A stretch of 64,000 nucleotides of DNA. Origin: Bacillota bacterium. Lineage in GTDB: Bacteria > Bacillota > Bacilli > Paenibacillales > NBRC-103111. The notes beneath the pieces are model-generated. The model worked only from the letters and a program-made list of their open reading frames with translations. It did not search any database and was not told where the DNA came from. The position numbers and the translations under genes were made by a program. Shown in pieces: positions 7,225 through 38,981 of this stretch; the first letter of the stretch is position 1, and each line of letters begins with the position of its first letter. The DNA is taken from contig JAEWIS010000023.1 of the NCBI GenBank assembly GCA_023386955.1, forward strand, positions 186,001-250,000. The letters are read 5' to 3'.

Positions 7225-7393
7225 GCGTCGTCCTCCACGAAAGAAACGTTGTTGGATGAAGTGTTATTTATTGGATTATTAATTGTAACGGATAAATATC
7301 CGCCAGATCAAGCGGTTGTTGTTGGAAAGCCCGGACTAATCCGGCCGCGCCCGAATAGACTGGTTGTATCAAACGCCGGAGAGGGGGATCGGC

Positions 7394-8167
7394 ATGGACA
7401 TCGTCTGGAAAGGCAATCAGCATACCAACTCTAGCCCGCGTAACGGGATTGTTCCTTTTGTCATCGTCAATCACATCTCGACAGGCACCATGAGCAGTAT
7501 GGACAACTGGTTTACCGACCCCAACAACCAGGTTTCCTCCGCCCATTTCGGGGTAGCCCGGGACGGCAGGATCCATCAATATGTGGCCGTGGACCGGATG
7601 GCCTGGGCTAACGGGATTCCGCAATCACAATTTGCCAGAGCGACAGCCCAAGTCGTGCATGATATGAATATGAATCCGAACCTATACACCGTCTCCATCG
7701 AACACGAAGGAACAAATGGAGATTTGACGGAAGCCCAGTTCCAATCCTCCGTTTGGCTGCACCGGCATATCCGGAAGATCATCCGGGATACCTGGCAGAG
7801 GGATTTTCCGCTGGACACCTACCATGTGTTGGGGCATTACCAAATCAATCCGGTCCAGAAGCCGGACTGTCCGGGGCCGAAATTTCCTTGGGCCCGGCTG
7901 TACCAAACCCTGGCTGAGCCGGAGATAGGAGATGAGGAGATGGAAGAGCTGCTTGCCCGTTTAACGGCATTGGAAGCGCAAAAGGCGCAGTTGGAGGCGA
8001 GAGTGGCGGCGCTGGAGGCTGTGGAGCATCTTCCGGGCATACCCGAATGGGCGCAGGAGGCTGTAAACAAAGCAGTCGCCCAAGGGCTGATTGATACCCC
8101 GCAGGGAGGCTCCTTTGATTTCTACCGTTTTCTGACCATTCTAAACCGCAAGGGCCTGCTCGGGTAA
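7394..8167 (+). CDS. N-acetylmuramoyl-L-alanine amidase (Amidase_2) with coiled-coil tail
   Basis: Cleaves the amide between muramic acid and the peptide stem of peptidoglycan. The Amidase_2/T7-lysozyme-like domain spans about residues 10-170: the first zinc ligand is in VNHISTG, the others in VLGHYQINP and KPDCPGPKF, with EHEG between them. It is followed by a heptad-rich coiled coil (EEMEELLARLTALEAQKAQL) and a short C-terminal segment ending GLLG. There is no signal peptide, which is phage-endolysin-like and may point to an old prophage origin or mother-cell lysis. GAGAGGGG stands about 7 nt before the ATG at 7394; the upstream ATG at 7364 has no ribosome site. Confidence 0.82.
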   Translation: MDIVWKGNQHTNSSPRNGIVPFVIVNHISTGTMSSMDNWFTDPNNQVSSAHFGVARDGRIHQYVAVDRMAWANGIPQSQFARATAQVVHDMNMNPNLYTVSIEHEGTNGDLTEAQFQSSVWLHRHIRKIIRDTWQRDFPLDTYHVLGHYQINPVQKPDCPGPKFPWARLYQTLAEPEIGDEEMEELLARLTALEAQKAQLEARVAALEAVEHLPGIPEWAQEAVNKAVAQGLIDTPQGGSFDFYRFLTILNRKGLLG

Positions 8168-8191
8168 TGCAACAAAGTCTATCACGCTACG

Positions 8192-8236
8192 AAAAAACGG
8201 CACCTCCCGGGAAAGGATTTCCCTAAGGGGGTGCCG
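8192..8236 (-). terminator. Terminator of gltX
   Basis: CGGCACC (8198-8204) pairs with GGTGCCG (8230-8236); on the minus strand T6 follows at 8197-8192. Confidence 0.85.
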
Positions 8237-8249
8237 TGTTGTGTTTTCC

Positions 8250-9701
8250 TTACAGCCGTGCCAGGCTTGCCTTCAGACGGCTCAGGGCTTCGGCCTTGCC
8301 GATAATCTCCAGAATGTCTGTGGCGCCTCCAGGTGTGTTCATCAGGCCGGAAACGGCCACACGGGCTACCCACATCAGGGCTCCGGCTTTGATGCCGGCA
8401 GCTTCACTCAGGTTCTTCAGACGCTCGAACAGAGCATCATTCTCCCAAACATCCGCCGATTCCAGCGAATCGATGATGGTGGGGAGCAGTTCCTTGGCCA
8501 GCTCGGCAGTGACCTTGTTCTTCTTGTTGACGAACAGCTCCACATCCAGCTCCGGCATGGCTTCGAAGAAGGCGACCATCTCCGGGATCTGGGAAAACTT
8601 CTCCAGACGGGACTGGATCAGGGTCAGCAGCTTGTCCTTGTTGATTTCCGGCTTCGTAATGGCCTTCTCCAGGTAAGGAGCGGCCAAGGTACGGAAGGCG
8701 TCAACGGGCAGCTTGCGGATGTATGCGCTGTTGAACCAAAGAAGCTTGTCGTAGTCGAATACAGCCGGGGACTTGTTGATGGTGTCCACACTGAATACAC
8801 GAGACAGCTCCTCCAGGTTGAAGAACTCTTCATTGGTGTTCCCCGGGCTCCAGCCCAGAAGCGCAATGTAGTTAATGATAGCCTCGGGCAGGTATCCATC
8901 CTCCACCAGATCCTGGAAGCTTACGGAGCCGTGGCGCTTGGACAGCTTGGACACCGAGCCATCCTCATTCCGGCCCATAATGAGCGGCAGATGCACGAAG
9001 ATTGGCGTTTCCCAGCCGAACATGCTGTACAGCTGCACATACAGAGGGGTGGAGGTGACATACTCGGAGCCGCGGACCACATGGGTAATATCCATCAGAT
9101 GGTCGTCCACTACGTTGGCCAGATTGTATGTAGGATAACCGTCGGCTTTGATCAGGACTGCATCCTGAAGCTCCGCATTGTCAATGGAGATTTCGCCGAA
9201 TACCGTGTCCGTATAGGAGGTTGTGCCGGTCAAAGGATTCTTTTGGCGGATGACATACGGCAGGCCGGCTGCCAGCTTGGCTTCCACCTCGGCCTGGGAC
9301 AAGCTCCGGCAGTGGCGGTCATAGCCGCCTGAACCGTTTTCCCCTTGGAGAGAGGAGAGGCGTTCTTTATCGCAGAAGCAATAGTACGCATGGCCGTTCT
9401 CCACCAGCTTGCGGGCATGCTCCAGGTAAATGTCTTTGCGTTCGCTTTGCACGTAAGGCCCGCGGCTGCCGCCGATATCGGGGCCTTCATCGTGGTGCAA
9501 TCCCGCCAGGTTCAGGGTATCATAGATGACCTGGACGGCTTGATCCACCAGCCGTTCACGGTCCGTATCCTCGATCCGGAGTATGAAGGTGCCTCCTTTG
9601 GACTTGGCCAGCAGATAGGCGTATAGAGCGGTTCTCAGGTTGCCGATATGCATGTAGCCGGTTGGGCTGGGTGCGAATCTGGTTACGATGGGGTTCATCA
9701 T
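8250..9701 (-). CDS. gltX: Glutamyl-tRNA synthetase
   Basis: Attaches glutamate to tRNA-Glu (class Ic). Signatures: RFAPSPTGYMHIGNLRTALY at the N-terminus (HIGH-type), RIEDTDRER, GRNEDGSVSKLSKRHGSVSF (KMSKS as LSKRH), and a helical anticodon-binding C-terminus ending SLARL. At 483 aa the length is normal; in Firmicutes that use Gln-tRNA amidotransferase it is usually non-discriminating. The open frame runs to 9836, but the family N-terminus begins at the ATGATG at 9701/9698, and AAGGAG is about 12 nt upstream. A strong terminator follows. No cysS or epf neighbours are visible. Confidence 0.94.
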   Translation of the reverse strand: MMNPIVTRFAPSPTGYMHIGNLRTALYAYLLAKSKGGTFILRIEDTDRERLVDQAVQVIYDTLNLAGLHHDEGPDIGGSRGPYVQSERKDIYLEHARKLVENGHAYYCFCDKERLSSLQGENGSGGYDRHCRSLSQAEVEAKLAAGLPYVIRQKNPLTGTTSYTDTVFGEISIDNAELQDAVLIKADGYPTYNLANVVDDHLMDITHVVRGSEYVTSTPLYVQLYSMFGWETPIFVHLPLIMGRNEDGSVSKLSKRHGSVSFQDLVEDGYLPEAIINYIALLGWSPGNTNEEFFNLEELSRVFSVDTINKSPAVFDYDKLLWFNSAYIRKLPVDAFRTLAAPYLEKAITKPEINKDKLLTLIQSRLEKFSQIPEMVAFFEAMPELDVELFVNKKNKVTAELAKELLPTIIDSLESADVWENDALFERLKNLSEAAGIKAGALMWVARVAVSGLMNTPGGATDILEIIGKAEALSRLKASLARL

Positions 9702-9920
9702 GGTTACGTGGCTGCTCCTTCTTGAATCTTGTTTATAAGCTACTCCATATTGTAGCAGGAAGCCGGCATAAAGCCAATGCCCCGGGAGTTTGGGGGCCTG
9801 TCGGGAGGGCTGTGAAAAGGGAGAGCTTTTTTTCAAGAAAAAATTAACTTGCTTCGCAACTCTTTCCGTTTGTCCGAGTATAACTTGGTATCAAATTTCT
9901 TCAGCATGCGGAGGTACATA

Positions 9921-10532
9921 ATGACGAGATTCAGAAGAGTGGCAGCTTTGACGCTGGCCTTCTTCCTGGTGGCCGGAGGAGCGGCGATTGCCGGCTCCCG
10001 GTGGGGCTCCTACGAAGGATATTCCAAGGTCCAGGTGAATGCCAACGGATCAACAATTAACAGCGCGGTTCCCGCGATCATGATGAATGGCGCAACGATG
10101 CTGCCCTTGCGGGAGACTGCATCGGCGTTGAATTCCTTTATCAAGTGGGATGACGGCAGTCAGACGGCCAATATCTACCGGCCCAATGTGAACATGATCG
10201 TGTCCCAGGAGCTGGATGAGAAGAAAGGCACCGTCACCAGCATTTCCAAACCCTTCTTTAAAGTAGGCTTGGGGTACAATATCCGGTTTTTCGTTTTCGT
10301 CCAGATGGATTCCCTCAAGACCACTGTGGACGGCTTCAAAATCAGTGTACTGGATCCCAACGGCAATGAGCTGGACAGCCGGGTATCCTCCGAATCCATC
10401 TATGATTATCTGTGGTCCAACGCCGCCTTCAATATCAAATTCTCCGAAGCCGGGAATTATACCGTCCGGTTCGCCCTTAAGGTGGACGGAGATTTCGTAA
10501 CCGTAGGCGAAAAGCTGATCGTATCTGAGTAA
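9921..10532 (+). CDS. Secreted stalk-domain protein
   Basis: Protein of 203 aa with a signal peptide (MTRFRRVAALTLAFFLVAGGAAIAG) and a copper-amine-oxidase N-terminal-like stalk domain (about 35-85; MMNGATMLPLRETASALNSF, IKWDDGSQTANIYR). The second half (about 95-200) looks like a beta-sandwich of Ig type (SEAGNYTVRFALKVDG). It is probably extracellular; binding partner unknown. GGAGG stands 6 nt before the ATG at 9921, so the longer frame from 9849 is rejected. A short terminator hairpin follows. Confidence 0.75.
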   Translation: MTRFRRVAALTLAFFLVAGGAAIAGSRWGSYEGYSKVQVNANGSTINSAVPAIMMNGATMLPLRETASALNSFIKWDDGSQTANIYRPNVNMIVSQELDEKKGTVTSISKPFFKVGLGYNIRFFVFVQMDSLKTTVDGFKISVLDPNGNELDSRVSSESIYDYLWSNAAFNIKFSEAGNYTVRFALKVDGDFVTVGEKLIVSE

Positions 10533-27387: not shown

Positions 27388-27855
27388 ATGCTAAATAATG
27401 GACTGCTAAATCCGGAGAATTTTGAGATTGATGAAGATTGCTGTGAAGACGTGGAAACCTGTATAGAGGCTTGCAACAGGCTTATCGAGAAATGGACACC
27501 CGAGTTGGAAAATGAGATGCTGGAGGCTTTTATAAAGCTTTATTATGCTGAGATGTATGAACAGTGGGGGCCTGACGATGAGGAAGAAAGCACAGCGTAG
27601 TGGCAGGAAATCAAGTCACCCGCGGACCTGATCAGACACACAGGTACAGATGTGACGCTGTATGCCTTAGAAGACGGCATATATGCCCGAAGTAAAACAG
27701 AGGAAGACAAATATGAGTCACAAAATGTGGATGTGTGCGTGATCCTGAGTCTCAATTGTCCCTGGGATGAAGAGCATGGTTGGGCAGCTGTTTTTGTAGA
27801 TGAAAAATTCGTTAAAGTTGGCCGTGATATTGTGGATTGCGTTTGGTTGGATTAG
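27388..27855 (+). pseudogene. DUF6985-like gene split by an in-frame TAG
   Basis: One reading frame of 156 codons interrupted once, by TAG at 27598-27600. The first part (70 aa) is acidic with RLIEKWTPELENEMLEAF and ends EQWGPDDEEESTA; the second continues WQEIKSPADLIRHTG and ends in SLNCPWDEEHGWAAVFVDEK, a pattern I associate with DUF6985-type proteins of unknown function. AGGAGGA stands 6 nt before the ATG. There is no frameshift, and the sequence similarity to the family continues across the stop, so a single TGG-to-TAG type change is likely. It is either a recent pseudogene or read through. Confidence 0.7.
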
Positions 27856-27963
27856 GGCGTGGCTATTCACGCGGCGGAACTGGCTGTCCCTTGTTCTGCA
27901 GGTTTTTTCGAGGATTCGGAATTAGTGTAGCCTTTCGGATTCATCAATGCAACAACGTTAGAT
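27856..27963 (+). repeat. Degenerate attC-like site 0 (left edge of the array)
   Basis: TATTCACGCGGCGG at 27864-27877 and CAACAACGTTAGAT at 27950-27963 align with the two ends of the complete sites, and CCCTTGTTCTGCAGG with their first internal hairpin. The left R box and the middle are lost or decayed. The following cassette starts GTTAGATGTAATTT. Confidence 0.6.
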
Positions 27964-28026
27964 GTAATTTATGAAGAACCTTAGAAAACATAAAAAAACA
28001 ATTTTAATAAATAGGAGAAATAAAAA

Positions 28027-28452
28027 ATGTATTCGCCCAGGCATATCGTTTCGGCTGCTGCAATCGTAATAAATGATAAGAACGAGTTACTACTTATTAA
28101 AGGGCCCAGAAGAGGTTGGGAAATGCCAGGCGGGCAAGTAGAAGTAGGAGAGTCTTTAAGTGATGCAGCAATAAGAGAAACAAAAGAAGAATCGGGAATA
28201 GACATAGAAATCATAAGGTTTTGTGGGATATTTCAGAATGTTGGGAATTCAATATGTAATACCTTGTTTTTGGCTAAGCCAGTTGGTGGAGAATTAATTC
28301 AAACACCTGAAAGCCTGGAATCTGGCTTCTTTCCTATTGAAGAGGCACTAGAAAAAGTAACATGGAAGGATTTTAGAAAAAGAATAGAGTACTGTCTAAA
28401 GACTGAAACTCAACCATTTTGTGTTGAATTTCACGATCAGAAGAATATTTGA
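28027..28452 (+). CDS. Nudix hydrolase
   Basis: Hydrolyses a nucleoside diphosphate linked to another moiety; the precise substrate is unknown. The 141-aa protein contains the Nudix box GGQVEVGESLSDAAIRETKEESGI with all conserved Gly/Glu/Arg positions (about 38-60), followed by FNVGNSI-like strands and a short C-terminal helix. AT-rich codon use differs sharply from the upstream sporulation genes. GGAG precedes the ATG. The cassette's own 3' site is missing: its opening GTTAGATGTAATT has no inverted partner before the next site, so this cassette has been fused with the remains of another. Confidence 0.85.
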   Translation: MYSPRHIVSAAAIVINDKNELLLIKGPRRGWEMPGGQVEVGESLSDAAIRETKEESGIDIEIIRFCGIFQNVGNSICNTLFLAKPVGGELIQTPESLESGFFPIEEALEKVTWKDFRKRIEYCLKTETQPFCVEFHDQKNI

Positions 28453-28462
28453 AAAGAGAGGA

Positions 28463-28627
28463 ATGAAATATAGCAAGGTATTCGCAAGTAACCTTTTTAA
28501 ACCAGGTGTGCGTGAAAGGTTAATAAAAGATGCTACTAAAAACGATTGGAAACCACTTGAGGAAAAGCAAGTTGTAAGGATTTTAGATAGTAGTTTTATT
28601 ATTGATGAATACAACAACGTTATCTGA
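28463..28627 (+). CDS. Possible small protein or gene remnant
   Basis: A 54-aa frame beginning MKYSKVFASNLFKPGVRERL, 10 bp after the Nudix stop. The ribosome-like AGAGAGG is only one base from the ATG, which is too close, and no family is recognised. It could equally be the tail of a second cassette gene that lost its start when two cassettes fused. The next 200 bp (28628-28844) hold only short frames and I see no gene in them. Confidence 0.25.
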   Translation: MKYSKVFASNLFKPGVRERLIKDATKNDWKPLEEKQVVRILDSSFIIDEYNNVI

Positions 28628-28844
28628 ATTTCCCCAAAGCTTATAAATAACTTAATGGAAGTTGAGACTATGAAGATAAAGATATTAGAAATTAATTTTC
28701 AGAAGAAGAACAAAATAATAGTATATTTTTCATGCACGATCGGAGAAGGTATAGGTGTTTAACTGAAGAAGAAATTAATGTATTGAGAAAGATGAAAACT
28801 TGAACAAAACTCAGAAAGCAACCTCGATGAAAACATGTTACTTC

Positions 28845-29028
28845 ACATAACAACGTATTCACGCGGCGGGCCTTACGGCCCTTGGTCTGCAAGAGGCATT
28901 TAGAGGAAGTGGACTCAGCAGACAACCTCTGCGAACCTAACCGCGTAGCGGCCGGTCTGGACCCAGCTGCGCTGTTGGATCCGTGCTTCCTTAAGGTTCT
29001 CGGGTTCGTGAATACAACGACGTTAACT
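28845..29028 (+). repeat. attC-like site A (184 bp)
   Basis: Opens ACATAAC AAC GTATTCACG and closes CGTGAATAC AACGAC GTTAACT. The outer stem GTATTCACG/CGTGAATAC is perfect. Internal hairpins: GGGCC/GGCCC, GTCTGC/GCAGAC, and AACCTAA/TTAAGGTT enclosing CCGCGTAGCGG. Its left box pairs with a lost cassette start; its right end opens the methyltransferase cassette. Confidence 0.8.
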
Positions 29029-29063
29029 GAAATCACCCAAATTAATAAAGGAGATAAATTCAT

Positions 29064-29684
29064 ATGTCACAAATCCATGAGTACATATTAAGTTTTATAG
29101 CATTTGACAACAAACAATTGAGTGTTATTAGTGAACAAGAGAGAAGAAGAAACGATATACAACCAAGTGTGGGACCGGAGGTTGCTAAGCTACTTGGTTT
29201 ATTAATACGTGTAGTGAATGCCAAAAGAGTCCTTGAAATTGGAACATGCCTAGGTTATTCAACTGTTTGGTTTGGGCAAGCGGTAAAGGAAACTAATGGA
29301 AAATTGGTATCAATTGAATATAACGAACAATTATTTAATGAAACAAAGAAGAATGTAGAACTAGCTGGCTTGGACCAATATGTAGATTTAAGGCTAGGAG
29401 ATGCTAGTGAAGAAATAAAAACTTTGGAGGGACCTTTTGATATTATCATTCAAGATAGTGATAAGAAACTATACCCAGAAATGTTAGAAGATTGTGTTCA
29501 GTTAATTCGTGTTAATGGAATGATAGTTGCTGATGATACATTATTCAAACCAATGGGGATACCTGATAAATTTAGCAAACCAATGGATGAGTATAATCAG
29601 AAGGTGTTTTTGGATACCAGACTGTATAGCACAATCCTTCCAATTGGAGATGGAGTTACGATAAGTGTAAAAGTTAAGGAGTAA
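29064..29684 (+). CDS. SAM-dependent O-methyltransferase, class I
   Basis: Methyl transfer from S-adenosylmethionine to a small acceptor, of the caffeoyl-CoA/catechol type (COG4122-like). The 206-aa protein has an N-terminal helical cap, VLEIGTCLGYSTVWFG (SAM motif I, about 56-71), VSIEYNEQ (motif acidic residue), LRLGDASEEIKTL and FDIIIQDSDKKLYPEMLEDC, where metal-dependent family members carry D-x-D; here QDSDK keeps both acids. AAGGAG precedes the ATG. The cassette is complete: GTTAACTGAAATC at its start is perfectly inverted as GATTTCAGTTAAC before site B. Confidence 0.88.
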   Translation: MSQIHEYILSFIAFDNKQLSVISEQERRRNDIQPSVGPEVAKLLGLLIRVVNAKRVLEIGTCLGYSTVWFGQAVKETNGKLVSIEYNEQLFNETKKNVELAGLDQYVDLRLGDASEEIKTLEGPFDIIIQDSDKKLYPEMLEDCVQLIRVNGMIVADDTLFKPMGIPDKFSKPMDEYNQKVFLDTRLYSTILPIGDGVTISVKVKE

Positions 29685-29715
29685 CTTTGGGGGAATCTCA
29701 GAGAAGGGTTGATTT

Positions 29716-29882
29716 CAGTTAACACCGCATACCCGCTACTGTCGGCTACGCCGACCTTGGTCTGCCCGAGGATTTTCGGAGAAGTAGATCAGGCAGACAA
29801 CCCTGCGAGGCTAAGTGGCAAAGCCACCCGCTCACTACGTTCGCTTAAGCCTCTCGGGTTCGTGAATACAACGAGGTTATGT
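29716..29882 (+). repeat. attC-like site B (167 bp)
   Basis: R'' AGTTAAC, R' GTTATGT. Its left extension GATTTCAGTTAAC (29710-29722) matches the inverted start of its cassette 13/13. Internal stem GAGGCTAAG/CTTAAGCCTC and hairpin GTGGC AAA GCCAC. The L stem is imperfect on the left (GCATACCCG). Confidence 0.85.
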
Positions 29883-29942
29883 GAAACTCAGCTAAAGATA
29901 TATTAAGTTCAAACATCAATATAAATCGAAGGGATTGATTTA

Positions 29943-30395
29943 ATGGATTGGATTCCGTTAATCGATCAGGAAGAGATTAATAAATTTATGAATGCATTTG
30001 GAAGATTTCACGATGCATGCTTAAAAGAATTATATTTATGGACCGATCATTACGTAAATAATGATTTTGCAATGAATGTTAGCAACAAACTAGATAACCG
30101 AATTAGGGTATTATTTCAAAGGCAATGGAATGACCCTTCCGCTGTAGAACTATTATTTGAAGAAGTAGTTAAACTTTGCATTTCTCCAAGCTCTGAGAAT
30201 TATGATTCGATTATTTTTGGAGCTTCTTTATATTTTGAGAATGGTATATGTTATTGGGCGGATGATAGTAATTGGAGACATGATAAACAATTTAACTATG
30301 AAGTGAACTGGATAGCCGCAAGGAAAGTTAGCTGGAGAGAACCGCGTCGCGGCCGGTCGGGGGCCAGCTTCGCTTATGGCTCTGTGCTTCCTTAA
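29943..30395 (+). CDS. Unknown cassette protein, 3' end fused to a broken attC site
   Basis: Open frame of 150 aa. The first 128 or so residues are natural-looking (MDWIPLIDQEEINKFMNAFG, HDACLKELYLWTDHYVN, acidic and aromatic-rich) and of no family I recognise. From about RKVSWREPRRGRSGASFAYG onward the frame is translated from the right half of an attC-like site, so the original C-terminus and the left half of the site have been deleted. The ribosome site GAAGGGATTG is weak. The protein may still be made, with a foreign 20-residue tail. Confidence 0.55.
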   Translation: MDWIPLIDQEEINKFMNAFGRFHDACLKELYLWTDHYVNNDFAMNVSNKLDNRIRVLFQRQWNDPSAVELLFEEVVKLCISPSSENYDSIIFGASLYFENGICYWADDSNWRHDKQFNYEVNWIAARKVSWREPRRGRSGASFAYGSVLP

Positions 30396-30429
30396 GGTTC
30401 TCGGGTTCGTGAATACAATCACGTTATCT
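30338..30429 (+). repeat. Right half of attC-like site C (truncated)
   Basis: Aligns with site A from its GAACCTAACCGCG region to the end: CCGCGTCGCGG hairpin, CTTCCTTAAGGTTCTCGGG, CGTGAATAC, AATCAC, GTTATCT. The left R and L boxes are absent, deleted together with the end of the preceding gene. Confidence 0.8.
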
Positions 30430-30465
30430 GCAATACCCTGAAGAACATTAATGACATTTTTACAA

Positions 30466-30778
30466 GAGAGGAAGATCGCATTTGAAGGCATGCCGTGGAA
30501 GGAGACTTGAAGAGGCAACAGCTACTGGCACTTTTGAGGATCGGATGATTGTATTTGAGGGCATGCCGTGGCAGAGGACTCGAAGAGGCAACAGCCACCG
30601 GCACTTATGAAGATCGGAAGATCGTATTTAAGGGCATGCCGTGGCAGAGGACTCGAAGAGGCAACAGCCACCGGCACTTTTGAAGATAAGAAGATCGTAT
30701 TTAAGGGCATGTCGTGGAAGGGAATTCGAGGAGGCAACAGCCGCCGACACTTTTGAGTGATAGAATGATAACTCGAAG
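30466..30778 (+). ncRNA. Non-coding cassette: four 73-bp tandem repeats, each able to form a hairpin
   Basis: GGCATGCC-type words recur at 30487, 30560, 30633 and 30706, exactly 73 bp apart. As 73 is not a multiple of three, no frame repeats, and neither strand has a convincing gene. Each unit has TGCCGTGG...CCACCGGCA able to pair; in unit 4 both arms change together (TGTCG with CGACA), and unit 1 has a G-T alternative. This compensatory change suggests a selected RNA or ssDNA fold. The cassette is bounded by GTTATCTGC (30423) and its inverse GCAGATAAC (30792). Transcription is not shown. Confidence 0.5.
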
Positions 30779-30793
30779 AGGTCAGGGCACAGC

Positions 30794-30950
30794 AGATAAC
30801 ACCGTATTCACGCGGCGGCCCTTACGGGCCTTGGTCTGCAGAGGCATTTCGAGGAAGCGGTTTCAGCAGACAACCCTGCGAGGCTAAGTCTTCGACCCGG
30901 CGCTGACGCGCCTTAAGCCTCTCGGGTTCGTGAATACAACAACGTTATCG
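30794..30950 (+). repeat. attC-like site D (157 bp)
   Basis: R'' AGATAAC, L'' GTATTCACG, L' CGTGAATAC, R' GTTATCG. Internal pairs GGCCC/GGGCC, GTCTGC/GCAGAC, GAGGCTAAG/CTTAAGCCTC, GGCGC TGAC GCGCC. The left edge GCAGATAAC is the inverse of the start of the tandem-repeat cassette (9/9). Confidence 0.85.
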
Positions 30951-30993
30951 GAAATCAGTGTAATGCAGTGAACTGCAAATAAAGGGGCAGGAC

Positions 30994-31479
30994 ATGAAAA
31001 ACATAATCAGAAACATTCTTTGGGCTATAATCATTTTCCCTTTTTTTATTAGTATATTTATGATAGATCATTTTTTGTTTTGGTTACTTTTCGGGTGTTA
31101 TGTATGTTTAATTGGTTTGCTTCTTTTGGTTATTGGATTATTTAGTAAACTAATGAAGATTGAAGGGAATATTAAACGTTTTTTTACAAGATTATATCTG
31201 CTTGTTTTTGGCATAGGTATGTTGGCTTTCTTTTGGATTGTATGGAGTTCAAGTTTTTTGGATGTTAATGCGTATTTTTCAAAGGACTATAAGACAATAA
31301 AGGGATTTCCTAGTCATATAGGTAGTCGGTCATCCAAAAGTCTGTTTCAAACAATAGAGATTAACAAAATAGAACTTAAAAGTGTTTATGAAATAAATTA
31401 CAAAGACATTGATAAAGAGTTTGAAGCATTGTACCTACCAAATTCAAAATATGTAATTAGGCTTTGGAAATACAAATAA
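30994..31479 (+). CDS. Unknown membrane protein in a cassette
   Basis: Protein of 161 aa. Three hydrophobic helices (about 8-27, 30-52 and 66-88: IIFPFFISIFMI, FLFWLLFGCYVCLIGLLLLV, LYLLVFGIGMLAFFWIVW) are followed by a soluble C-terminal half of about 70 residues (YSKDYKTIKGF-like, then EINKIELKSVYEINY). No family is recognised. The sequence is strongly AT-rich. AAAGGGGC lies before the ATG. The cassette is intact: GTTATCGGAAATCAG at its start against CTGACTTCCGATAAC at its end, 14/15. Confidence 0.65.
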   Translation: MKNIIRNILWAIIIFPFFISIFMIDHFLFWLLFGCYVCLIGLLLLVIGLFSKLMKIEGNIKRFFTRLYLLVFGIGMLAFFWIVWSSSFLDVNAYFSKDYKTIKGFPSHIGSRSSKSLFQTIEINKIELKSVYEINYKDIDKEFEALYLPNSKYVIRLWKYK

Positions 31480-31511
31480 TATGAATGTTGATCAAAGAAG
31501 ACACTGACTTC

Positions 31512-31667
31512 CGATAACACCGTATTCACGCGTCGGGCCTGAAGGCCCTTGGTCTGCAAGAGGCATTTCAAGAAGCGGATTCAGCAGACACCCTGCGAGG
31601 CTAAGTCTTCGACCCGGCGCTTGCGCGCCTTAAGCCTCTCGGGTTCGTGAATACAACAACGTTATGT
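31512..31667 (+). repeat. attC-like site E (156 bp)
   Basis: R'' CGATAAC, L stem GTATTCACG/CGTGAATAC, R' GTTATGT; the internal hairpins are as in site D (GGGCC/GGCCC, GTCTGC/GCAGAC, GGCGC/GCGCC). The left edge matches the inverse of its cassette start at 14 of 15 positions. Confidence 0.85.
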
Positions 31668-31699
31668 GTAATTGTCCAAGAGCCATTGAAGAACAGCCC

Positions 31700-32142
31700 A
31701 TCAGGAATCAAAATCTTGAAACCCAATTTGTTTGAAGAGAATTCTAGGAAGAATAGAATGAAGGTCCCGCCTGGGGATGACAACGAGCAAGCAGCTCGTT
31801 CGGCGGAACCTTCATTCGTGGGATACAGGTTTCAGTGGGTTTCAAGACCGAAAGATTCCCGAACAAAATCGTCTTAAGGTCTTTACCCATCTTGATTTTC
31901 AATACTCATTGGTAAGGGCTTAGAAGGGATTTATCCGATTCAGAGATTGGAAAAGGCGAAAGGACTGGATAGGGATGGTTGAAGAGCCGGTGCCCGCCTC
32001 CTTAGCAACAATCGCGATATTCCAGCCTTGCCGCCAACCTGGTAAGCCCCTTCGACGCAAATCGGATGAATCCCAAAGCCCTATTTGAAAGAGTATTGAA
32101 AAACCTGATAAGGGATGGGTAAGGACCTGAAAGGACGATTTC
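31700..32142 (+). ncRNA. Non-coding cassette with long nested inverted repeats
   Basis: No frame of the cassette looks like a gene. Stem 1: GGAATC...CTTGAAACCCA (31704-31725) with TGGGTTTCAAG...GATTCC (31836-31859). It encloses a hairpin GAATGAAGGTCCCGCC (31756-31771) with GGCGGAACCTTCATTC (31802-31817), whose tip has AACGAGC/GCTCGTT. Stem 2: 31867-31940 with 32060-32140, sharing AAATCGTC, TTACCCATC, TTTTCAATACTC, AGGGCTT and ATCCGATT against their inverses; its 120-nt loop pairs further (GGCGAAAGGACTGGA with TTCCAGCCTTGCC). It could be a structured RNA, or a MITE-like element inside a cassette; strand is assumed from the cassette orientation. Confidence 0.5.
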
Positions 32143-32172
32143 TTGGGCTGGCTCGAGGAAGGGGACAACTAC

Positions 32173-32336
32173 ACATAACACCGTATTCACGTGTCGGGCC
32201 TGTCGGCCCTTGGTGCTGGAAGCGGTTCGGCATTTTGCCTGAACCGGCTGCGCGCACAACCCTGCGAGGCTAAGTCTTCGACCCGGCGCTGACGCGCCTT
32301 AAGCCTCTCGGGTTCGTGAATACATTCACGTTAGGC
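32173..32336 (+). repeat. attC-like site F (164 bp)
   Basis: R'' ACATAAC, R' GTTAGGC (the standard integron form). The second hairpin is of a different type from D/E: GTGC/GCAC with inner CGGTTC/GAACCG and GGCA/TGCC replaces GTCTGC/GCAGAC. The left edge GACAACTACACATAAC matches the inverse of the cassette start at 15/16. Confidence 0.85.
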
Positions 32337-32404
32337 GAAACCATCAGATGTAAAACATTATTAAAACCTTAAAACACAAAATAAAGAAAGAGAGGGGTAA
32401 AAAA

Positions 32405-32944
32405 ATGCAAATTCTTCTATTATTATTTTTGCTTTTCTCCAATTTTTTTTATTCGCCGAATGAAAACAATAGTACTTTTAATTACACCAATACAAAGCTG
32501 GGATTTAGTTTAGAGTTACCAACAAATTGGAAGGGTAAAGTATACATTCAAGAATCTGATTCAAGGGTATCGTTTATGTATAAATCTGTATCAGGCAACG
32601 AGGATGCTGAATTATTCGATATATTTTTAATTTCACCAATACAATATAAAGTACATGAAGAGTATGTTGGGTTTTATAGATATTTTGGTCAAAGGGATGA
32701 GTTAGTTATAGCCAAATTTTCTCCTACGGGAGTTCCATATGATGATTTAAACTCCTTGCAGAAACAAGATTTTGATAATTTTTTTATTTTGTATAAAGAT
32801 GTTAACTCTATTTTAGAAACATTTAAATTAACAAACGAACATGACAATAGCATATATAAACAAGTTATTAAAGAAAGTTCAGTGAAAGACGAAGAATTTA
32901 GGAAAGAATATGAAAGAATCATAAGGGATGAGTTAAAGAATTAA
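32405..32944 (+). CDS. Secreted or membrane-anchored cassette protein, PsbP/DUF1795-like pattern
   Basis: Protein of 179 aa with a hydrophobic N-terminus (MQILLLLFLLFSNFFYSP), then NTKLGFSLELPTNWKGKVYIQES, the opening typical of small PsbP/DUF1795-like surface proteins, and a charged helical tail (SSVKDEEFRKEYERIIRDEL). The C-terminal DVNSILETFKL also fits that fold, where a final helix follows the sheet. Function unknown. GAGAGGGG precedes the ATG. Cassette start GTTAGGCGAAACCATC against GATGGCATCGCCTAAC at its end, 14/16. Confidence 0.6.
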   Translation: MQILLLLFLLFSNFFYSPNENNSTFNYTNTKLGFSLELPTNWKGKVYIQESDSRVSFMYKSVSGNEDAELFDIFLISPIQYKVHEEYVGFYRYFGQRDELVIAKFSPTGVPYDDLNSLQKQDFDNFFILYKDVNSILETFKLTNEHDNSIYKQVIKESSVKDEEFRKEYERIIRDELKN

Positions 32945-32973
32945 CAATCATGAAAGTAACTCAAGATGGCATC

Positions 32974-33135
32974 GCCTAACACCGTATTCCTACTGCGGGC
33001 CATTCGGCCCTTGGTCTGCAAGAGGATATTCGATGAAGCGGAATCAGCAGACACACCTGCACCACCTAACCGCATCGCGGCTGGCCCTAGCGGGCCTTAA
33101 GGTAGTGAGGCGTCAGGAATACAAGAACGTTATAT
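32974..33135 (+). repeat. attC-like site G (162 bp), compensatory variant
   Basis: R'' GCCTAAC, R' GTTATAT. The L stem has changed on both sides: GTATTCCT with AGGAATAC in place of GTATTCACG/CGTGAATAC. The inner stem is CACCACCTAA/TTAAGGTAGTG in place of GAGGCTAAG/CTTAAGCCTC, with hairpins CCGC ATC GCGG and GGCCC TAGC GGGCC. Confidence 0.85.
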
Positions 33136-33192
33136 GCAATCAGCCCAGAACTAGTATTTAAAAAGACTTACAGGAAGGAGGGAAGAAGAATC

Positions 33193-33459
33193 TTGAAGTT
33201 CTATTTAAGCATTAAACATAGATTTTACAAGATGTTTCCTGTAAGGAAGGATCGGATAAGAATTACCAGTTCATTAATGTCGCTACTTCCCGTTTTCATC
33301 GTGTTGAGTCTAGGTGGGCCATTGGAATACAGGGATTATATTGTAATAACAATATGTATGATATTAATAATTGCGTCAGTGTTAAGTGCTTTAATGGATA
33401 GACTAAAAGACTATGTATTAAAGATGATAAAAACTAGAGAAAACAAATTCAAAAGTTAA
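33193..33459 (+). CDS. Small unknown membrane protein in a cassette
   Basis: Protein of 88 aa, basic N-terminus (FYLSIKHRFYKMFPVRKDR) and two hydrophobic helices (ITSSLMSLLPVFIVLSLG and DYIVITICMILIIASVLSAL), then a basic tail. A TTG start at 33193 has AAGGAGGG about 10 nt upstream, a strong ribosome site that decides the start. No family recognised. It is the smallest coding cassette. Start GTTATATGCAATCAGCC against GGCTGACTTCATATAAC at its end, 15/17. Confidence 0.55.
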   Translation: MKFYLSIKHRFYKMFPVRKDRIRITSSLMSLLPVFIVLSLGGPLEYRDYIVITICMILIIASVLSALMDRLKDYVLKMIKTRENKFKS

Positions 33460-33556
33460 GAGCAAATTTAGTGACTGGGAAAACTGTGAAACATTTTAAA
33501 GAATATTAGGGATTTTTCCAAGGAATCGTGAGTATCTCAGTGAAGTGGCTGACTTC

Positions 33557-33717
33557 ATATAACATCGTATCTACACTGCGGGCCATACGGCCCTTGGTCT
33601 GCAGAGGCATTGCGGAGAAGCTGAATCAGCAGACAACCCTGCGAGGCTAAGTGGCAGAGCCACCCGGCCCTGACGGGCCTTAAGCCTCTCGGGCTCGTAG
33701 ATACAACAACGTTATAT
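33557..33717 (+). repeat. attC-like site H (161 bp), compensatory variant
   Basis: R'' ATATAAC, R' GTTATAT. L stem GTATCTAC/GTAGATAC: both arms differ from the common GTATTCACG/CGTGAATAC yet pair perfectly. Inner hairpins GTGGC AGA GCCAC and GGCCC TGAC GGGCC. Confidence 0.85.
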
Positions 33718-33762
33718 GACATCTATGCAAGAAACTTATTGAAGGTTGGGACAGGAAGCCTA

Positions 33763-34494
33763 ATGAAGAAAATTACAATCAATAATTTAACCCACCGGGA
33801 CCAGGTGTCGTTGTTTGATTACTGGAGAATCATTGATTCAATTGATGAATTTAATGCATCCTTTGAAGAAGGATCAATTAATGGAATTATCGGAGAGTTA
33901 GGTCATGGAGGTTAGCTTCTTTCAGCTATTTTGTGTGGAAGAATCAACAATGAAGCTATAGTTAATACTATAACACTTTCCGGAATGCCGTCAGGTATAG
34001 AAAGCCTTCGAAGGATATCTTGTTATGTGGGCGAAGGTGTTGCAGAAGCCCCTTATAGAAGACTTCAGAACTATCCCAGAAAATTAATGCGGAAAATCAT
34101 TGGTGTTAAGACAGTGATGGAGCATATTCGAGAAGGACTGATCAAAAGTAAAAGTGAATTGTGTTTTTCTGAAATTGCGGAGATGTTTGAACTAACTGGA
34201 ATGTACGACAATGATGAAAGAATAGGTAGAATTAACCGGCCATTAGAATTTCAAAGTGGTGAAGTTTGGCGTGCATCTATGGCAATAGGTGTTGCATATC
34301 AGAAAAAATTATTTTGCTTTCCTTGGTTAGAACCAGAGTTTTTGATAAATGTATTATCGAAAGAAAATCAGAAGTACATTGAAAGGATAAGGGATATTGG
34401 AGGAACGATTATAGTTCCTGTAAGTAATGTTGAATATTTTAATAACAAAGTTGATCAAACAATATATTTAAAGAAACCAAAGAACAGAATTTGA
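33763..34494 (+). pseudogene. Degenerate ABC-ATPase-like gene split by an in-frame TAG
   Basis: A single frame of 244 codons from the ATG at 33763, interrupted once by TAG at 33913-33915. The first piece starts MKKITINNLTHRDQVSLFDY and reaches GIIGELGHGG; after the stop it continues LLSAILCGRINNEA and then ISCYVGEGV, PRKLMRKIIGVKTVMEHIRE, SGEVWRASMAIGVAYQKKLFCFPWLEP. From memory, related proteins read GGWALS at the stop, a modified Walker A loop, so TAG replaces a Trp codon. The later blocks resemble the signature (SGE-RA) and Walker B regions of ABC ATPases in a degenerate form. GGAAG precedes the start. Cassette ends match 17/18. Confidence 0.65.
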
Positions 34495-34530
34495 TAGCTT
34501 TGATAGTTACTCGGTGAAGGCATAGACGTC

Positions 34531-34698
34531 ATATAACACCATATTCACGCGGCGGGCCTGATGGCCCTTGGTGCTGGAAGCGGCTCGGCAATTGGCCTGA
34601 ACCGGCTGCGCGCACAACCCTGCGAGGCTAAGTGGCGGAGCCACCCGGCAGCAAGCTGCCTTAAGCCTCTCGGGTTCGTGAATACAACAACGTTATGT
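34531..34698 (+). repeat. attC-like site I (168 bp)
   Basis: R'' ATATAAC, R' GTTATGT. Same alternative second hairpin as site F (GTGC/GCAC with CGGCTC/GAACCG type arms). Third hairpin GTGGC GGA GCCAC then GGCAGC AA GCTGCC. Left edge GCATAGACGTCATATAAC matches the inverse of its cassette start 17/18. Confidence 0.85.
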
Positions 34699-34729
34699 GA
34701 AATACACGCAATATGAAATGAGGGTAAAG

Positions 34730-35359
34730 ATGCCAGAATATTCTCAAATTCAAACCTATATAAAGTGCGATCAAAACAATATTAAAGAGGTCATGAATGA
34801 TGTTATAAACACATTAAATGAATGCGGGATTAAAGATGCTAAAATAATTTCTGATTTTTGTGGATTAGAGTGGGAAGTAGATGAGGATGGGTCCATGTAT
34901 GTGAGTGGAGGAGATGAAACAAGAGAATTTATGTTTGCTGGCCAACTTATTCACATTCGTCCTTATGTTATGGAATGGACTTCAAAAAGCATAAAAAAAT
35001 TGCAACAATCGTGGCTTGAAGTGAGCCTTCTCTTTTGGGCTGAGGAGATTGTACAATGTAGTTTCGATTATGTATTAAAAGAAGAACATAGATCAGTAAT
35101 TTGGAAGTTAATGACTACATTCTCACAACTCCATAATCAAACTGGTGTATATTTTACTAACGAAGCAACGGATGGCCGCCCTTGGGAAGCCTTGATACAG
35201 AATGACTTGAATAGTATATGGATGTTTGATGCTGCAATAATAAATAAGGCAAGTATGAATTGTTATCAAGCTCTTGACGAATCAATATTTTTCTCGAATT
35301 ACCAGGAGAATGATTTATTAATAGCTCGGAAACAAACATGGATTAAAGAACCTTGGTGA
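34730..35359 (+). CDS. Unknown cytoplasmic protein, last cassette
   Basis: Protein of 209 aa, starting MPEYSQIQTYIKCDQNNIKE. No signal or membrane segment and no family recognised. The first 75 residues look like a compact alpha/beta domain (NTLNECGIKDAKIISDFCGLEWEV), the rest is helical with many aromatics (SWLEVSLLFWAEEIV, RSVIWKLMTTFSQLHNQTG). The frame is open from a GTG inside the R' box at 34697, but GAGGG before the ATG at 34730 marks the start. Cassette start GTTATGTGAAATACACGC against GCCTGTACTTCACATAAC at its end, 16/18. Confidence 0.55.
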   Translation: MPEYSQIQTYIKCDQNNIKEVMNDVINTLNECGIKDAKIISDFCGLEWEVDEDGSMYVSGGDETREFMFAGQLIHIRPYVMEWTSKSIKKLQQSWLEVSLLFWAEEIVQCSFDYVLKEEHRSVIWKLMTTFSQLHNQTGVYFTNEATDGRPWEALIQNDLNSIWMFDAAIINKASMNCYQALDESIFFSNYQENDLLIARKQTWIKEPW

Positions 35360-35385
35360 TTGTATATCAGGAAGGCCTGTACTTC

Positions 35386-35400
35386 ACATAACACCGTATT
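35386..35400 (+). repeat. Left end of a truncated attC-like site J
   Basis: ACATAACACCGTATT equals the opening 15 bp of the complete sites and then the similarity stops abruptly at 35400. The rest of the site is missing, so this is where the array has been cut from its original right-hand continuation. Confidence 0.8.
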
Positions 35401-35438
35401 ATGCGATGTGTTTTTTGAACCCCTCAAAACGCCCTCAG

Positions 35439-35813: not shown

Positions 35814-38800
35814 ATGGTAATATGGGAACGGATATGTGATATTTCAAAAATGACTCTAGACGTTGGAGAAACCAACTTGTACAACGAGACTGTATTCCCG
35901 ATGCTACTTCTGTACCTCATTCTTTATAAGACGGACATACGTCTGAACCCTGTCAAAGCAGAAATGGTAGAGCAAGAATCGCAAAGATACTTGTCTTCAA
36001 AAAGATGCGTGAATATTTCGACATCCTTTGATAAAATAATAAGCAGTAGAACTATTGAAATAAGATTTCTTAAATATATGGTGGAAATACATAAGGGGCG
36101 CTGTAAAATGAGCTATTTCTCAGAAACTTATAGTGAATTACGATATCCTATTTCTTCTGATAACACGATTGGTTTGAGAAATGCTCAATTAGGTGCAATA
36201 CATGCTATCGCTTCTTATCATACGTTGCGGAAAAAGACTTCAGGTATAGTTGTGATGCCTACTGGATCTGGAAAAACTGCGGTTCTAATGATGACACCAT
36301 ACATCACTGCCAGTAAAAAAGTGTTGATTGTTACTCCAAGTGTAATGGTGCGCGGGCAAATCCATAAAGATTTTACTGAACTAAAGACACTTAAAAAAGC
36401 TAAAGCTTTTTCTGAAGCGATCAGTCCTCCAACGGTTTATGAACTTAAGAACAAATACTCAGATGATCTTCAATCAGATATTGAAGCTTCGGATGTAGTC
36501 ATATCAACCCCCCAATGTGCTTTATCATTATCTGAAAGCAATATCAAATACATATTTGATTTAGTCCTCATTGATGAAGCTCATCATGTACCAGCGCAGA
36601 CGTGGCAACAGATTCTTATAAATTTGAAGGAAGCTAATCAGTTTCTGTTTACAGCTACTCCTTTTCGGATGGATCGAAAAGAATTAAAAGGGGAAATTGT
36701 ATATACATATCCTTTGTCGATGGCATATCGCGATGGAATTTTCGGAGAAGTTCGTTATATTCCAATTGATGAAGCACCAGAAAAAGATAAACTTATTGCA
36801 AAAGAAGCGGAACGCATTTTCTTTAATGATAGGCAACAGGGATATGATCATTATCTGATGATACGAACCGATACAAGAGAAAAAGCTAGACAACTTGAGC
36901 AACTATATCAAGAAGAAACGACATTGATTTTGAAGCGCATAGATAGTTCTATGTCTTTTAGAACTGTTGAGATATGTATAAATGATTTAAAGGAAAAACG
37001 TATTGATGGTATTATTTGTGTTGATATGCTGGGTGAAGGATTCGATTTTCCTAATTTAAAAATTGCGGCTATCCACTCACCACATAAATCACTTGCCAGC
37101 ACTCTTCAATTTATCGGAAGATTTGCACGAACAAATGCTGAAAATATTGGCGTGGCAAAATTTATAGCCATGAATAATGAAGAACTGATAATAGAAAACT
37201 ATAGGCTTTTTACTAATGATGCTGTGTGGCAGGAAATTATTGTAGATATGAGTGAACGAACAATTCGAAAAGAAGAGGAAGTAAAAAAGAATCTTGGAGA
37301 GTATGTTCGAGGTGACGGTACTTCATCTTCTGAAGATGTAATCTCTTTACATAGTTTAAGACCGAATTGTCACGCAAAAGTTTATCAAATCTCGGGATTT
37401 AATATCAAAGGGGAATTTCCGAAAATTTGCGGTGTAGGAGATAACATTTATAGAAATCCTGCTGACAATACGATTGTAGGCGTAGGTATAATCAAAAATC
37501 GACCCAAATGGTCAGAAACTGAACATGTATTGGATGTTCAAAATTACCTTTTTATTGTACATTTTCAGAAAGCAACATCGTTACTTTTTATATATTCACA
37601 AATGAAGAGCGAATTGGACTATCAATTGATTGCAGAAGCTTTTACTGCGGATTATGATAAAATACCAAGAAACGAAATTCATAGAGTACTAGGTGAGCTA
37701 CAAGAATTTGAAATGTTTAATACAGGCATGCAAAATAGATTTTCGGAATCTGGTGAATCTTATCGTATTTATGCTGGCTCTAATGTAGCCTCAACGATTG
37801 ATCCGATAACTGGTAAGATGTACTCCGCTGGACATGTTTTCTGCAAAGCTGTAGCTGGTGCAGATCCAGTTACAATTGGATATAGTAGCGGATCGAAAAT
37901 CTGGAGCAGTTCGTATTCGCTTATCTCAGATTATGTTAAATGGTGCGATTTATATGGTCTTAAAATTGCTAACGCATCAATGAAAGTTCGCACAAACACA
38001 AATTATGATTTAATGCCGTTACCACAGAGACTTAAACAATTTCCTGAAAAAGTGTTTTTCTGTTTTTTTTCAGATAGGACTTATACTTCACCTCCCGTTG
38101 TAATGCATAGTACGGACGAGATTACTGAAACAATATTAACTGATGCAATTTTAAATATAGTTTCCGTTTCTCATGATGAAATACTAGTTGAAGTAAACCT
38201 TCTTGATTTTTCTGAATTAATTGTTTGTAGGGTTAATGGAAAATGTTACTGCACCGAGCCTACCATACTTCTAAGGGATGGTAGGAATAGGATTTATCTT
38301 TCTGATTATTTGTGTAATTTTCCGCTAGTTTTTAAGACCACAGACGATGCTTTAATTGAAGGTAATGAAATATGTTCGGGTGCACCAAGTGCCATTGTTT
38401 TTTCTTCTGAGAGCATTATAGGTGTTAACTGGCCTCAATATAAAACAGATATTCGATGTGAGTTTGGCAAAGCAAGGCCAGGATTAAAAGCAATACAAGA
38501 TGTTTTAGAAGAAATTCTGATTGAACAAGACGATTTTGAATACTTGCTCTATGATCATGGATCAGGTGAAATTGCCGATTACATTACGATAAGGGAAACA
38601 GAATACAAACTTGAAGTTATACTTTATCATGTAAAGGCAATGGGAGGGAAAAGGTTTAATGCGGATGTAAATGATATTTATGAGGTTACCCAACAAGCTA
38701 TAAAATCAATAATATGGGTGAAATCTAGAGGGACTATCTTAGAAAAAATAAGGAGCCGTAGAAAAAGCAACCACAGCATTATGAAAAAGGGTCAGTTTCA

Positions 38801-38981
38801 TCAACTGGAGAAATCACTAAAACAAAACAAGATTTTTACTACTAAAATTGTTATCGTTCAGCCAGCTATCAGTAAAGGAGTTGACCTACCCTCTAAATAT
38901 CAGGAGGTTTTGGCAGCTACAAGTTTTTATATTAAAAATAGCGGTCGTGTTACTGAACTTGGTATATGGGGAAGTTCGTGA
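35814..38981 (+). CDS. Superfamily 2 DEAD/DEAH helicase with nuclease-like C-terminus (possible defence protein)
   Basis: Protein of 1055 aa. The helicase core occupies about residues 115-480: Walker A VMPTGSGKTAVL, VLIVTPSVMV (Ia), LVLIDEAHHVPAQTW (DEAH, motif II), FLFTATPFRMDR (motif III), CVDMLGEGFDFPNL and LQFIGRFARTN (motifs V and VI). The C-terminal part has GSGEIADYITI followed by KLEVILYHVKAMGGKRFNADVNDIYEV, a D...hHxK pattern I have seen as the PD-(D/E)XK-like end of large phage-defence helicases, where the Glu of ExK is not clear here. It is AT-rich and stands alone next to the cassette array. Role in defence is inferred from architecture and context. Confidence 0.78.
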   Translation: MVIWERICDISKMTLDVGETNLYNETVFPMLLLYLILYKTDIRLNPVKAEMVEQESQRYLSSKRCVNISTSFDKIISSRTIEIRFLKYMVEIHKGRCKMSYFSETYSELRYPISSDNTIGLRNAQLGAIHAIASYHTLRKKTSGIVVMPTGSGKTAVLMMTPYITASKKVLIVTPSVMVRGQIHKDFTELKTLKKAKAFSEAISPPTVYELKNKYSDDLQSDIEASDVVISTPQCALSLSESNIKYIFDLVLIDEAHHVPAQTWQQILINLKEANQFLFTATPFRMDRKELKGEIVYTYPLSMAYRDGIFGEVRYIPIDEAPEKDKLIAKEAERIFFNDRQQGYDHYLMIRTDTREKARQLEQLYQEETTLILKRIDSSMSFRTVEICINDLKEKRIDGIICVDMLGEGFDFPNLKIAAIHSPHKSLASTLQFIGRFARTNAENIGVAKFIAMNNEELIIENYRLFTNDAVWQEIIVDMSERTIRKEEEVKKNLGEYVRGDGTSSSEDVISLHSLRPNCHAKVYQISGFNIKGEFPKICGVGDNIYRNPADNTIVGVGIIKNRPKWSETEHVLDVQNYLFIVHFQKATSLLFIYSQMKSELDYQLIAEAFTADYDKIPRNEIHRVLGELQEFEMFNTGMQNRFSESGESYRIYAGSNVASTIDPITGKMYSAGHVFCKAVAGADPVTIGYSSGSKIWSSSYSLISDYVKWCDLYGLKIANASMKVRTNTNYDLMPLPQRLKQFPEKVFFCFFSDRTYTSPPVVMHSTDEITETILTDAILNIVSVSHDEILVEVNLLDFSELIVCRVNGKCYCTEPTILLRDGRNRIYLSDYLCNFPLVFKTTDDALIEGNEICSGAPSAIVFSSESIIGVNWPQYKTDIRCEFGKARPGLKAIQDVLEEILIEQDDFEYLLYDHGSGEIADYITIRETEYKLEVILYHVKAMGGKRFNADVNDIYEVTQQAIKSIIWVKSRGTILEKIRSRRKSNHSIMKKGQFHQLEKSLKQNKIFTTKIVIVQPAISKGVDLPSKYQEVLAATSFYIKNSGRVTELGIWGSS

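Follow-up and report, generated by a model that had tools for sequence, protein, structure and literature searches.

A row of gene cassettes separated by structured sites occupies roughly 27.85 to 35.40 kb of the 64-kb stretch analysed here (the window; contig JAEWIS010000023.1 of a Bacillota bacterium, chromosomal and likely from a relative of Paenibacillus), with every site on the + strand. GC content drops at this array, from 0.51-0.57 outside to 0.37-0.42 within. A two-ended detector trained on collected sites (the window's own included) finds eight complete sites in the array and not one site end in the 48 kb of window positions 1-24000 and 40001-64000. A complete site runs from a left edge, ...TAAC-ACC-GTATTCACG, through a structured and variable middle to a right edge, CGTGAATAC-AACAAC-GTTA.... 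An earlier sequence-only reading proposed an integron-type cassette array in a Firmicute, in which the start of each cassette pairs with the left edge of its own 3' site, and this rule holds for most of 699 distinct cassettes from the window and related loci. The window very probably carries the cassette array of an integron-like capture system, whose recombinase heads similar arrays in relatives and likely inserts and excises cassettes at the G of GTTA.

Pairing of cassettes with their own ends

All eight pairs of cassette start and 3' site listed in the sequence-only reading are found where it placed them, and they were scored, together with a ninth and weakly paired cassette (28619-28851), at positions 5-9 and 12-18 counted from the GTT. 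The nine cassettes pair with their own 3' ends at 93 of 108 positions, as against an off-diagonal mean of 5.43 out of 12, and random reassignment of the ends reaches 93 in none of 200,000 trials. The pairing comes in two blocks, one of 9 nt (GTTAnnnGA) and one of about 7 nt, with two conserved, non-complementary positions between them, and it stops at position 18.

Two surveys yield identical pairing profiles. One covers 408 cassettes of 150-3000 nt, each taken from a right end to the next left end in 115 loci plus the window, with ends lacking GTT or AAC excluded; the other, made with an improved detector, covers the 699 cassettes (150-2500 nt, identical copies removed) of the window, L001-L115 and L166-L202. 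Positions 1-4 read GTTA, and positions 8-9, GA, are conserved in nearly all cassettes. The variable positions 5-7 pair with the cassette's own end at frequencies of 0.91, 0.88 and 0.88, and with the ends of other cassettes from the same locus at only 0.49, 0.34 and 0.37 (over positions 5-9 of the 699 cassettes, 0.88-0.93 versus 0.34-0.93). Positions 10-11 are conserved and mostly non-complementary. Positions 12-18 are variable again, with own-end pairing that declines from 0.88 to 0.58 (0.27-0.50 for other ends of the same locus) and falls to background beyond position 18; this block matches at 7/7 in 250 of the 699 cassettes, at 6/7 in 210, and at 3/7 or fewer in 102. Two neighbouring cassettes that face each other across one site match at 6 or 7 of these seven positions in only 6 of 449 distinct cases. 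Because pairing is high with a cassette's own end and nearly absent across the sites between neighbours, it is a property of the cassette and not of the site as it stands in the array. The paired sequence varies among the units, with 329 different 7-mers counted over 395 distinct pairs, which bears out the earlier contention that these are not the fixed terminal repeats of a transposon. A canonical control of five plasmid and six viral-contig loci, of which six of the eleven show no site at all by a crude detector, gave four usable pairs, with some 7-12 nt paired and values near chance at positions 13-18; four pairs are too few, and therefore no claim is made that canonical sites lack the second block.

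The sites have the integron-type form R''-L''-...-L'-R', with GTT and a bottom-strand hairpin, the choice of strand being predicted. In a set of 764 distinct sites, the pairs of the L stem (+5..+12 with -8..-15) are Watson-Crick at frequencies of 0.85-0.98, and the stem shows compensatory changes (e.g. TA 638 / CG 73, AT 635 / GC 68, TA 712 / CG 32); its outermost pair, +4/-7, is Watson-Crick at 0.47 and A.C at 0.49. The spacers are 3 nt on the left and 6 nt on the right, and the difference in arm length is confined to them. The sequence-only reading had called these attC boxes, which holds for the GTT, the R/L layout and the predicted hairpin, but not for the L stem, where no extrahelical base is found over the 764 sites. 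A top-strand A.C, which is T.G on the bottom strand, is found in 721 of 764 sites at +1/-1 and prevails by 359 to 3 at R-arm positions 10-11; elsewhere the strands differ little (42 to 37, 138 to 100). Folding predictions make the bottom strand more stable at 578 of the 764 sites and the top strand at 175, with 11 ties. When a cassette's own start replaces that of its neighbour, the predicted bottom-strand hairpin is stabler in 507 of 547 cases, by a median of 7.9 kcal/mol; a random cassette start in the same place gives a median change of 0.

Recombinase, insertion point and shared cassettes

In relatives a gene for a tyrosine recombinase stands at one end of the array, as in integrons. No recombinase of this family is encoded in the 64-kb window, and for that reason the window's array is CALIN-like (an integrase-less array). 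Among 40 recombinase regions, taken from the family matches listed, 34 carry co-oriented sites downstream (281 sites, the first 332-4444 bp past the recombinase match) and none upstream within about 2 kb; one of the 34, L166, additionally has two downstream sites of opposite direction. In three of the other six only 191, 601 and 1001 bp of contig are left. The last three (L203-L205, 192-218 bits) are of a shorter, IS91-linked kind, with five sites upstream, 17 of opposite direction downstream, and no co-oriented ones downstream. At L135 and L205 a 283-aa recombinase gene lies immediately before an IS91-type transposase gene, next to a site array; the transposase beside the recombinase is confirmed by Pfam at L135 only, and an ORF (open reading frame) of like size is seen at L203, L215, L216 and L217.

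Intact array recombinases have about 380-405 aa, an Xer-like fold, and Pfam matches to Phage_integrase and a SAM-like domain. Across 34 homologues five columns never vary (R, K, H, R and H) and a sixth (Y) hardly does; we take these to be the catalytic residues. The IntI profile TIGR02249 scores three array recombinases at 205, 213.3 and 196.1 bits, below its cut-off of 265. It matches something in all 19 site-bearing genomes and all 14 controls, above the cut-off in none of the 19 and never in controls. The best matches are split, several of them in loci that carry sites, and leave profile positions 180-232 unmatched; residues 182-237 of the IntI4 chain are likewise unmatched, with 14 residues there in the array recombinases. 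On these alignments the IntI-specific I2 insertion is missing from the array recombinases. Their extra N-terminal domain is possibly HARP-like. In a tree the two IntI rows form a separate group (100/100) and the Xer rows another (98/97, flagged for long branches); all 26 array recombinases fall together at only 66/56, and here too the program warns of long branches. The sequence-only reading had looked to relatives for an IntI-type recombinase beside the same sites: a recombinase is there, at the head of the array, but its lack of the IntI insertion and its place in the tree set it apart from IntI.

Between the recombinase gene and the first cassette, 67-203 bp past the end of the recombinase match, lies an attI-like site, GAAGTTCGTAAATWAGAc followed by GTTA, or a variant of it. 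Of the GTT (or TTT) trinucleotides within the first 450 nt, the one that gave the highest own pairing was taken, a choice that favours high scores; on this basis 40 of 43 loci have a first cassette that matches its own end at 12-16 of 16 positions, and L166, L077 and L196 have 8-10. The 47 loci examined include four with no left end within 2.5 kb, two loci entered under two names (L092/L167, L120/L201) and three that are closely related (L184, L185, L188). Seventeen loci selected for alike flanks give 59 pairs with at least 80% identity over 60 nt upstream. In these pairs per-base identity lies at 0.83-1.0 between -10 and +3, as against 0.25-0.37 for blocks further than +10, and blastn downstream of the attI-like point finds a match in one of the 59, of 19 nt and on the opposite strand. 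Flank identity is high up to +3 and about 0.3 thereafter, so that loci with a common flank carry unrelated first cassettes: the first cassette has been exchanged at a fixed point right after GTTA, and comparison places an insertion point of the attI type beside the recombinase. Strains with the same repeats at fixed positions and no gain or loss of cassettes would have spoken against the sequence-only reading; exchange of the first cassette beside a fixed flank is seen instead.

Whole cassettes also recur between species. Among 101 blastn cassette pairs, 39 with at least 85% identity over at least 300 nt were inspected with 700 nt of flank. A single cassette of about 800 nt (86.5-98.3% identity), found in seven Paenibacillus and Saccharibacillus species (L004, L095, L109, L091, L111, L074 and L075), accounts for 21 of the 39. 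Homology begins 12-17 nt ahead of the GTT in both members of 15 pairs, at the L' arm common to the sites (eight of these 15 are again the seven-species cassette, and L006/L012 share one genome), and ends 4-12 nt beyond the next GTT in six; the remaining pairs begin or stop at other points, in many cases through a missed boundary. Among the examples are P. gallinarum and P. solani (919 nt, 96.8%, from -16 to +4), P. antibioticophila and P. albidus (1214 nt, 95.6%, from -16), and Cohnella terricola and P. lycopersici (750 nt, 93.5%, from -32). The shared units, together with the exchange of first cassettes between species, show by comparison that cassettes move as units, and the predicted junction at GTT agrees with the breaks and shared-unit edges, which lie at GTTA. 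In L052/L060, neighbouring stretches of a single contig of a metagenome-assembled genome, 2.2 kb including cassettes are 100% identical and flanks are shared as well, a recent duplication or an assembly artefact.

Layout of the array and distribution of the family

The features of the window's array are collected in Table 1. Four sites are incomplete: a degenerate one ahead of 27957, two that lack their left part, ahead of 28619 and 30423, and one cut off after 35392. The sequence-only reading spoke of single ORFs, which is only partly right; two cassettes have no convincing gene and in a third the reading frame is interrupted. Two of the scanned cassette ORFs have Pfam matches and the remaining ones have none; Rfam at gathering scores gives no match within the array. 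For one stretch, 31500-31679, the predicted folding energy is -33.1 kcal/mol on the bottom strand (z -2.72) and -29.9 on the top (z -1.78). The bulk of cassette 30423-30800 is made up of its 73-nt tandem repeats, which are 82-87% alike.

Table 1. Features of the cassette array, in window coordinates.
Feature	Coordinates	Strand	Remark
First site	27849..27956	+	degenerate; right end still TTCATCAATGCAACAACGTTA
Cassette	27957..28589	+	NUDIX ORF 28027-28452; 3' end without detectable left arm
Partial site	28590..28618	+	right end only
Cassette	28619..28851	+	weak own pairing, 8/9 then 2/7
attC-like site	28852..29021	+	
Cassette	29022..29723	+	O-methyltransferase ORF 29064-29684 (Pfam)
attC-like site	29724..29875	+	
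Cassette	29876..30340	+	ORF 29943-30395 extends into truncated site; left arm not found
Truncated site	30341..30422	+	right part
Cassette	30423..30800	+	no convincing gene; 73-nt tandem repeats
attC-like site	30801..30943	+	
Cassette	30944..31518	+	ORF 30994-31479, no Pfam match
attC-like site	31519..31660	+	
Cassette	31661..32179	+	no convincing gene
attC-like site	32180..32329	+	
Cassette	32330..32980	+	ORF 32405-32944, no Pfam match
attC-like site	32981..33128	+	
Cassette	33129..33563	+	ORF 33193-33459, no Pfam match
attC-like site	33564..33710	+	
Cassette	33711..34537	+	reading frame interrupted; neither piece with Pfam match
attC-like site	34538..34691	+	
Last cassette	34692..35392	+	ORF 34697-35359 (Pfam start taken at 34730), no Pfam match
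Last site	35393..35402	+	cut off past left edge; end of array

The genes upstream of the array are presumably dacF and then the spoIIAA-spoIIAB-sigF operon, judged by their ORFs; for this spoIIA operon the nearest sampled genome is only a 75% match. About 420 bp beyond the end of the array begins a gene for a 1055-aa helicase of ResIII/DEAD type (35814-38981), and a T-box leader with tRNA-Thr lies on the - strand at 5184-5750.

A 20-mer from the right edge of the site turns up in 115 stretches across the genome collection, in every case in records named Paenibacillus, Cohnella, Saccharibacillus, Fontibacillus or Paenibacillaceae, and the site pattern has no match in viral contigs. A protein search gives 7664 relatives at E <= 1e-40 among 7999 scored; named sources among the 120 matches listed are Paenibacillus, Saccharibacillus, Cohnella, Gorillibacterium, other Paenibacillaceae/Bacillales, or uncultured and compost samples. 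In the window's likely family the recombinase has a match in 101 of 295 sampled genomes at E <= 1e-60 and in 78 at E <= 1e-110, the 23 weaker ones being fragments or the shorter IS91-linked kind. The class-level search has matches in 28 of 398 genomes and the phylum-level search in 38 of 398 at E <= 1e-60 (19 at E <= 1e-110); the two samples have genomes in common, and some of the looser matches are fragments or recombinases of the shorter type.

Ten class-level regions comprise four with arrays or sites (L210, L212, L213, L214), three with scattered ends only (L215, L218, L219), two without site ends (L216, L217), and L211, also without, where almost no contig is left. At the phylum level 16 regions were drawn from 44 listed places, partly by length of contig, and 13 of them show the own-pairing signature downstream of the recombinase, with 44 pairs, as against 0-0.4 per region in shuffles (2-nt blocks, five each; opposite-strand counts are no control, the test being palindromic). 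In ten regions the first pair starts 89-213 bp past the recombinase match; L262, L263 and L265 (the last with 212 bp left) have no own pairs. The L boxes differ in sequence among these regions, and the stem, the short left spacer and the longer right one are kept; of 19 sites the bottom strand is predicted to fold better in 17 and the top in one, with one tie. Further afield, L274, a Chryseobacterium plasmid, has at about 7100-10250 a gene for a 38%-identical recombinase followed by small co-oriented genes. By eye some gene starts and ends there pair by the same rule (e.g. GTTATACGATATTTT with GTTATACGATGTTTT, A/G at position 11), and the automatic test gives 7 pairs versus 0.5 in shuffles, several not of this form. 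L274 is possibly a cousin system on Bacteroidota plasmids; in L273 and L275 the pairing signal is not above shuffles.

Interpretation and relation to known systems

Sequence comparison establishes a unit (GTTA...own left arm...site), a fixed exchange point, the sharing of units and an 18-nt pairing of their ends. Because of the own-end pairing, the attI-like site behind the recombinase, the exchange of first cassettes and the recurrence of cassettes across species, it supports a system that works like an integron. The recombinase would bind the hairpin formed by a site's bottom strand and exchange strands at the G of GTTA. Excision would unite the cassette's two own arms into a circle with an 18-nt outer stem, and the complete hairpin would be inserted at the attI-like site behind the recombinase gene; since excision joins the cassette's own two arms, the full outer stem should be confined to the free circle. 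The N-terminal domain, if HARP-like, may hold or anneal the hairpin stem in place of IntI's I2 insertion. The second pairing block may serve recognition of the circle, because hundreds of cassettes conserve it although it is of no use to their sites within the array; alternatively, the two ends of a cassette may pair in single-stranded DNA prior to excision, which would demand the identical complementarity.

The inverted repeats at the ends of each unit, and the repetitive, structured sites, might suggest copies of a terminal-inverted-repeat transposon or a MITE-like (miniature inverted-repeat transposable element) repeat with passenger genes. A variable paired sequence (the 329 7-mers above), unidirectional arrays behind a recombinase gene, and a single site common to neighbouring units make this extremely improbable. 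We give equally little credence to the sites being RNA elements (terminators, processing or regulatory hairpins) of an ordinary operon with the recombinase as a bystander: the top strand is also predicted to be structured and the genes are mostly co-oriented, but predicted folding favours the bottom strand at 578 of the 764 sites, this reading would leave the own-end pairing across a whole gene, the fixed-point exchange and the interspecies sharing of units unexplained, and Rfam at gathering scores has no match in the array. A canonical integron (IntI plus attC) acquired by Firmicutes through transfer is only slightly less improbable. This reading is not supported, because the IntI insertion is missing (the split alignment skips profile 180-232 and IntI4 182-237), the scores of 196-213 bits fall short of 265 with none of the 19 site-bearing genomes above it, the IntI rows group apart at 100/100, and the L stem has no extrahelical base.

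For the window's copy alone, and compatibly with an integron-like capture system, the array may be stranded, or its cassettes may be moved by the host's XerC/D and not by a dedicated recombinase. Several damaged sites and one interrupted frame, the want of a family member within the 64 kb, and the Xer-like fold of the enzyme family all speak for this; own pairing is kept in the window, and a long-dead array should lose it. We consider this rather unlikely; unless the window's array is stranded, any movement of its cassettes would depend on an enzyme whose gene lies outside the window in the same genome. On the system as a whole we lean, with some reserve, toward an integron lineage of the Firmicutes' own: a clade of HARP-domain tyrosine recombinases without I2, in which single-strand capture evolved separately from IntI and works through a long bottom-strand hairpin, whose cassette-specific 18-nt outer stem, formed only in the free circle, marks correct excision for attI insertion. 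It would be phylum-wide, with a cousin on Bacteroidota plasmids.

Integrons (IntI/attI/attC, as in Vibrio superintegrons and class 1) share with this system a recombinase, an attI-like site, a cassette array mostly of one ORF each, the GTT junction, an R''-L''...L'-R' site predicted to fold on the bottom strand, and arrays without integrase (CALIN). They differ in that the array recombinase here has an extra N-terminal domain and no I2 insertion and points the same way as its array (intI1 runs opposite to the cassettes in the class 1 stretches compared), in that the sites have no extrahelical L base and spacers of 3 versus 6 nt, and in the additional own-pairing block at 12-18, seen in none of only four class 1 pairs. 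The IS91-linked tyrosine recombinases of the L135/L205 type score about 181-225 bits against the array recombinases and join them apart from IntI in the tree (91/72), but they are of 283-305 aa, lack the N-terminal domain, and have no co-oriented downstream array in the three scored regions. XerA, XerC and XerD form a tree group separate from the array recombinases; Xer recombinases act at single dif sites and are not known to have cassette arrays.

In published accounts, IntI is marked by an additional I2 domain around patch III (PMC9668308, PMC4792948), attC by extrahelical bases in the L'' arm (PMC2727003), and Firmicutes are among the phyla with integrons (PMC8618304). The IntegronFinder 2.0 survey (PMC9024848) has Limnochorda pilosa as the only complete Firmicutes integron; this integron and the scattered Firmicutes CALINs are likewise cassette arrays in Firmicutes, found via IntI/attC models. 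By contrast with that one complete integron, roughly one in four genomes sampled from a single Firmicutes family (78/295, E <= 1e-110) has a match to the recombinase described here. No account of this family was found in the literature, judged mainly by titles and abstract openings, with subscription journals and preprints thinly covered. The system would reveal to what extent cassette capture depends on features of IntI integrons (I2 domain, extrahelical bases). It would also add another instance from which to study how single-strand site-specific recombination arose, gives access to many mobile genes, most of them without known function, and could yield a tool for Gram-positive hosts. If the recombinase does cut out and insert cassettes, as is likely, this would be a gene-capture system running in parallel with Gram-negative integrons, new in its enzyme and its site and already familiar in its integron logic.

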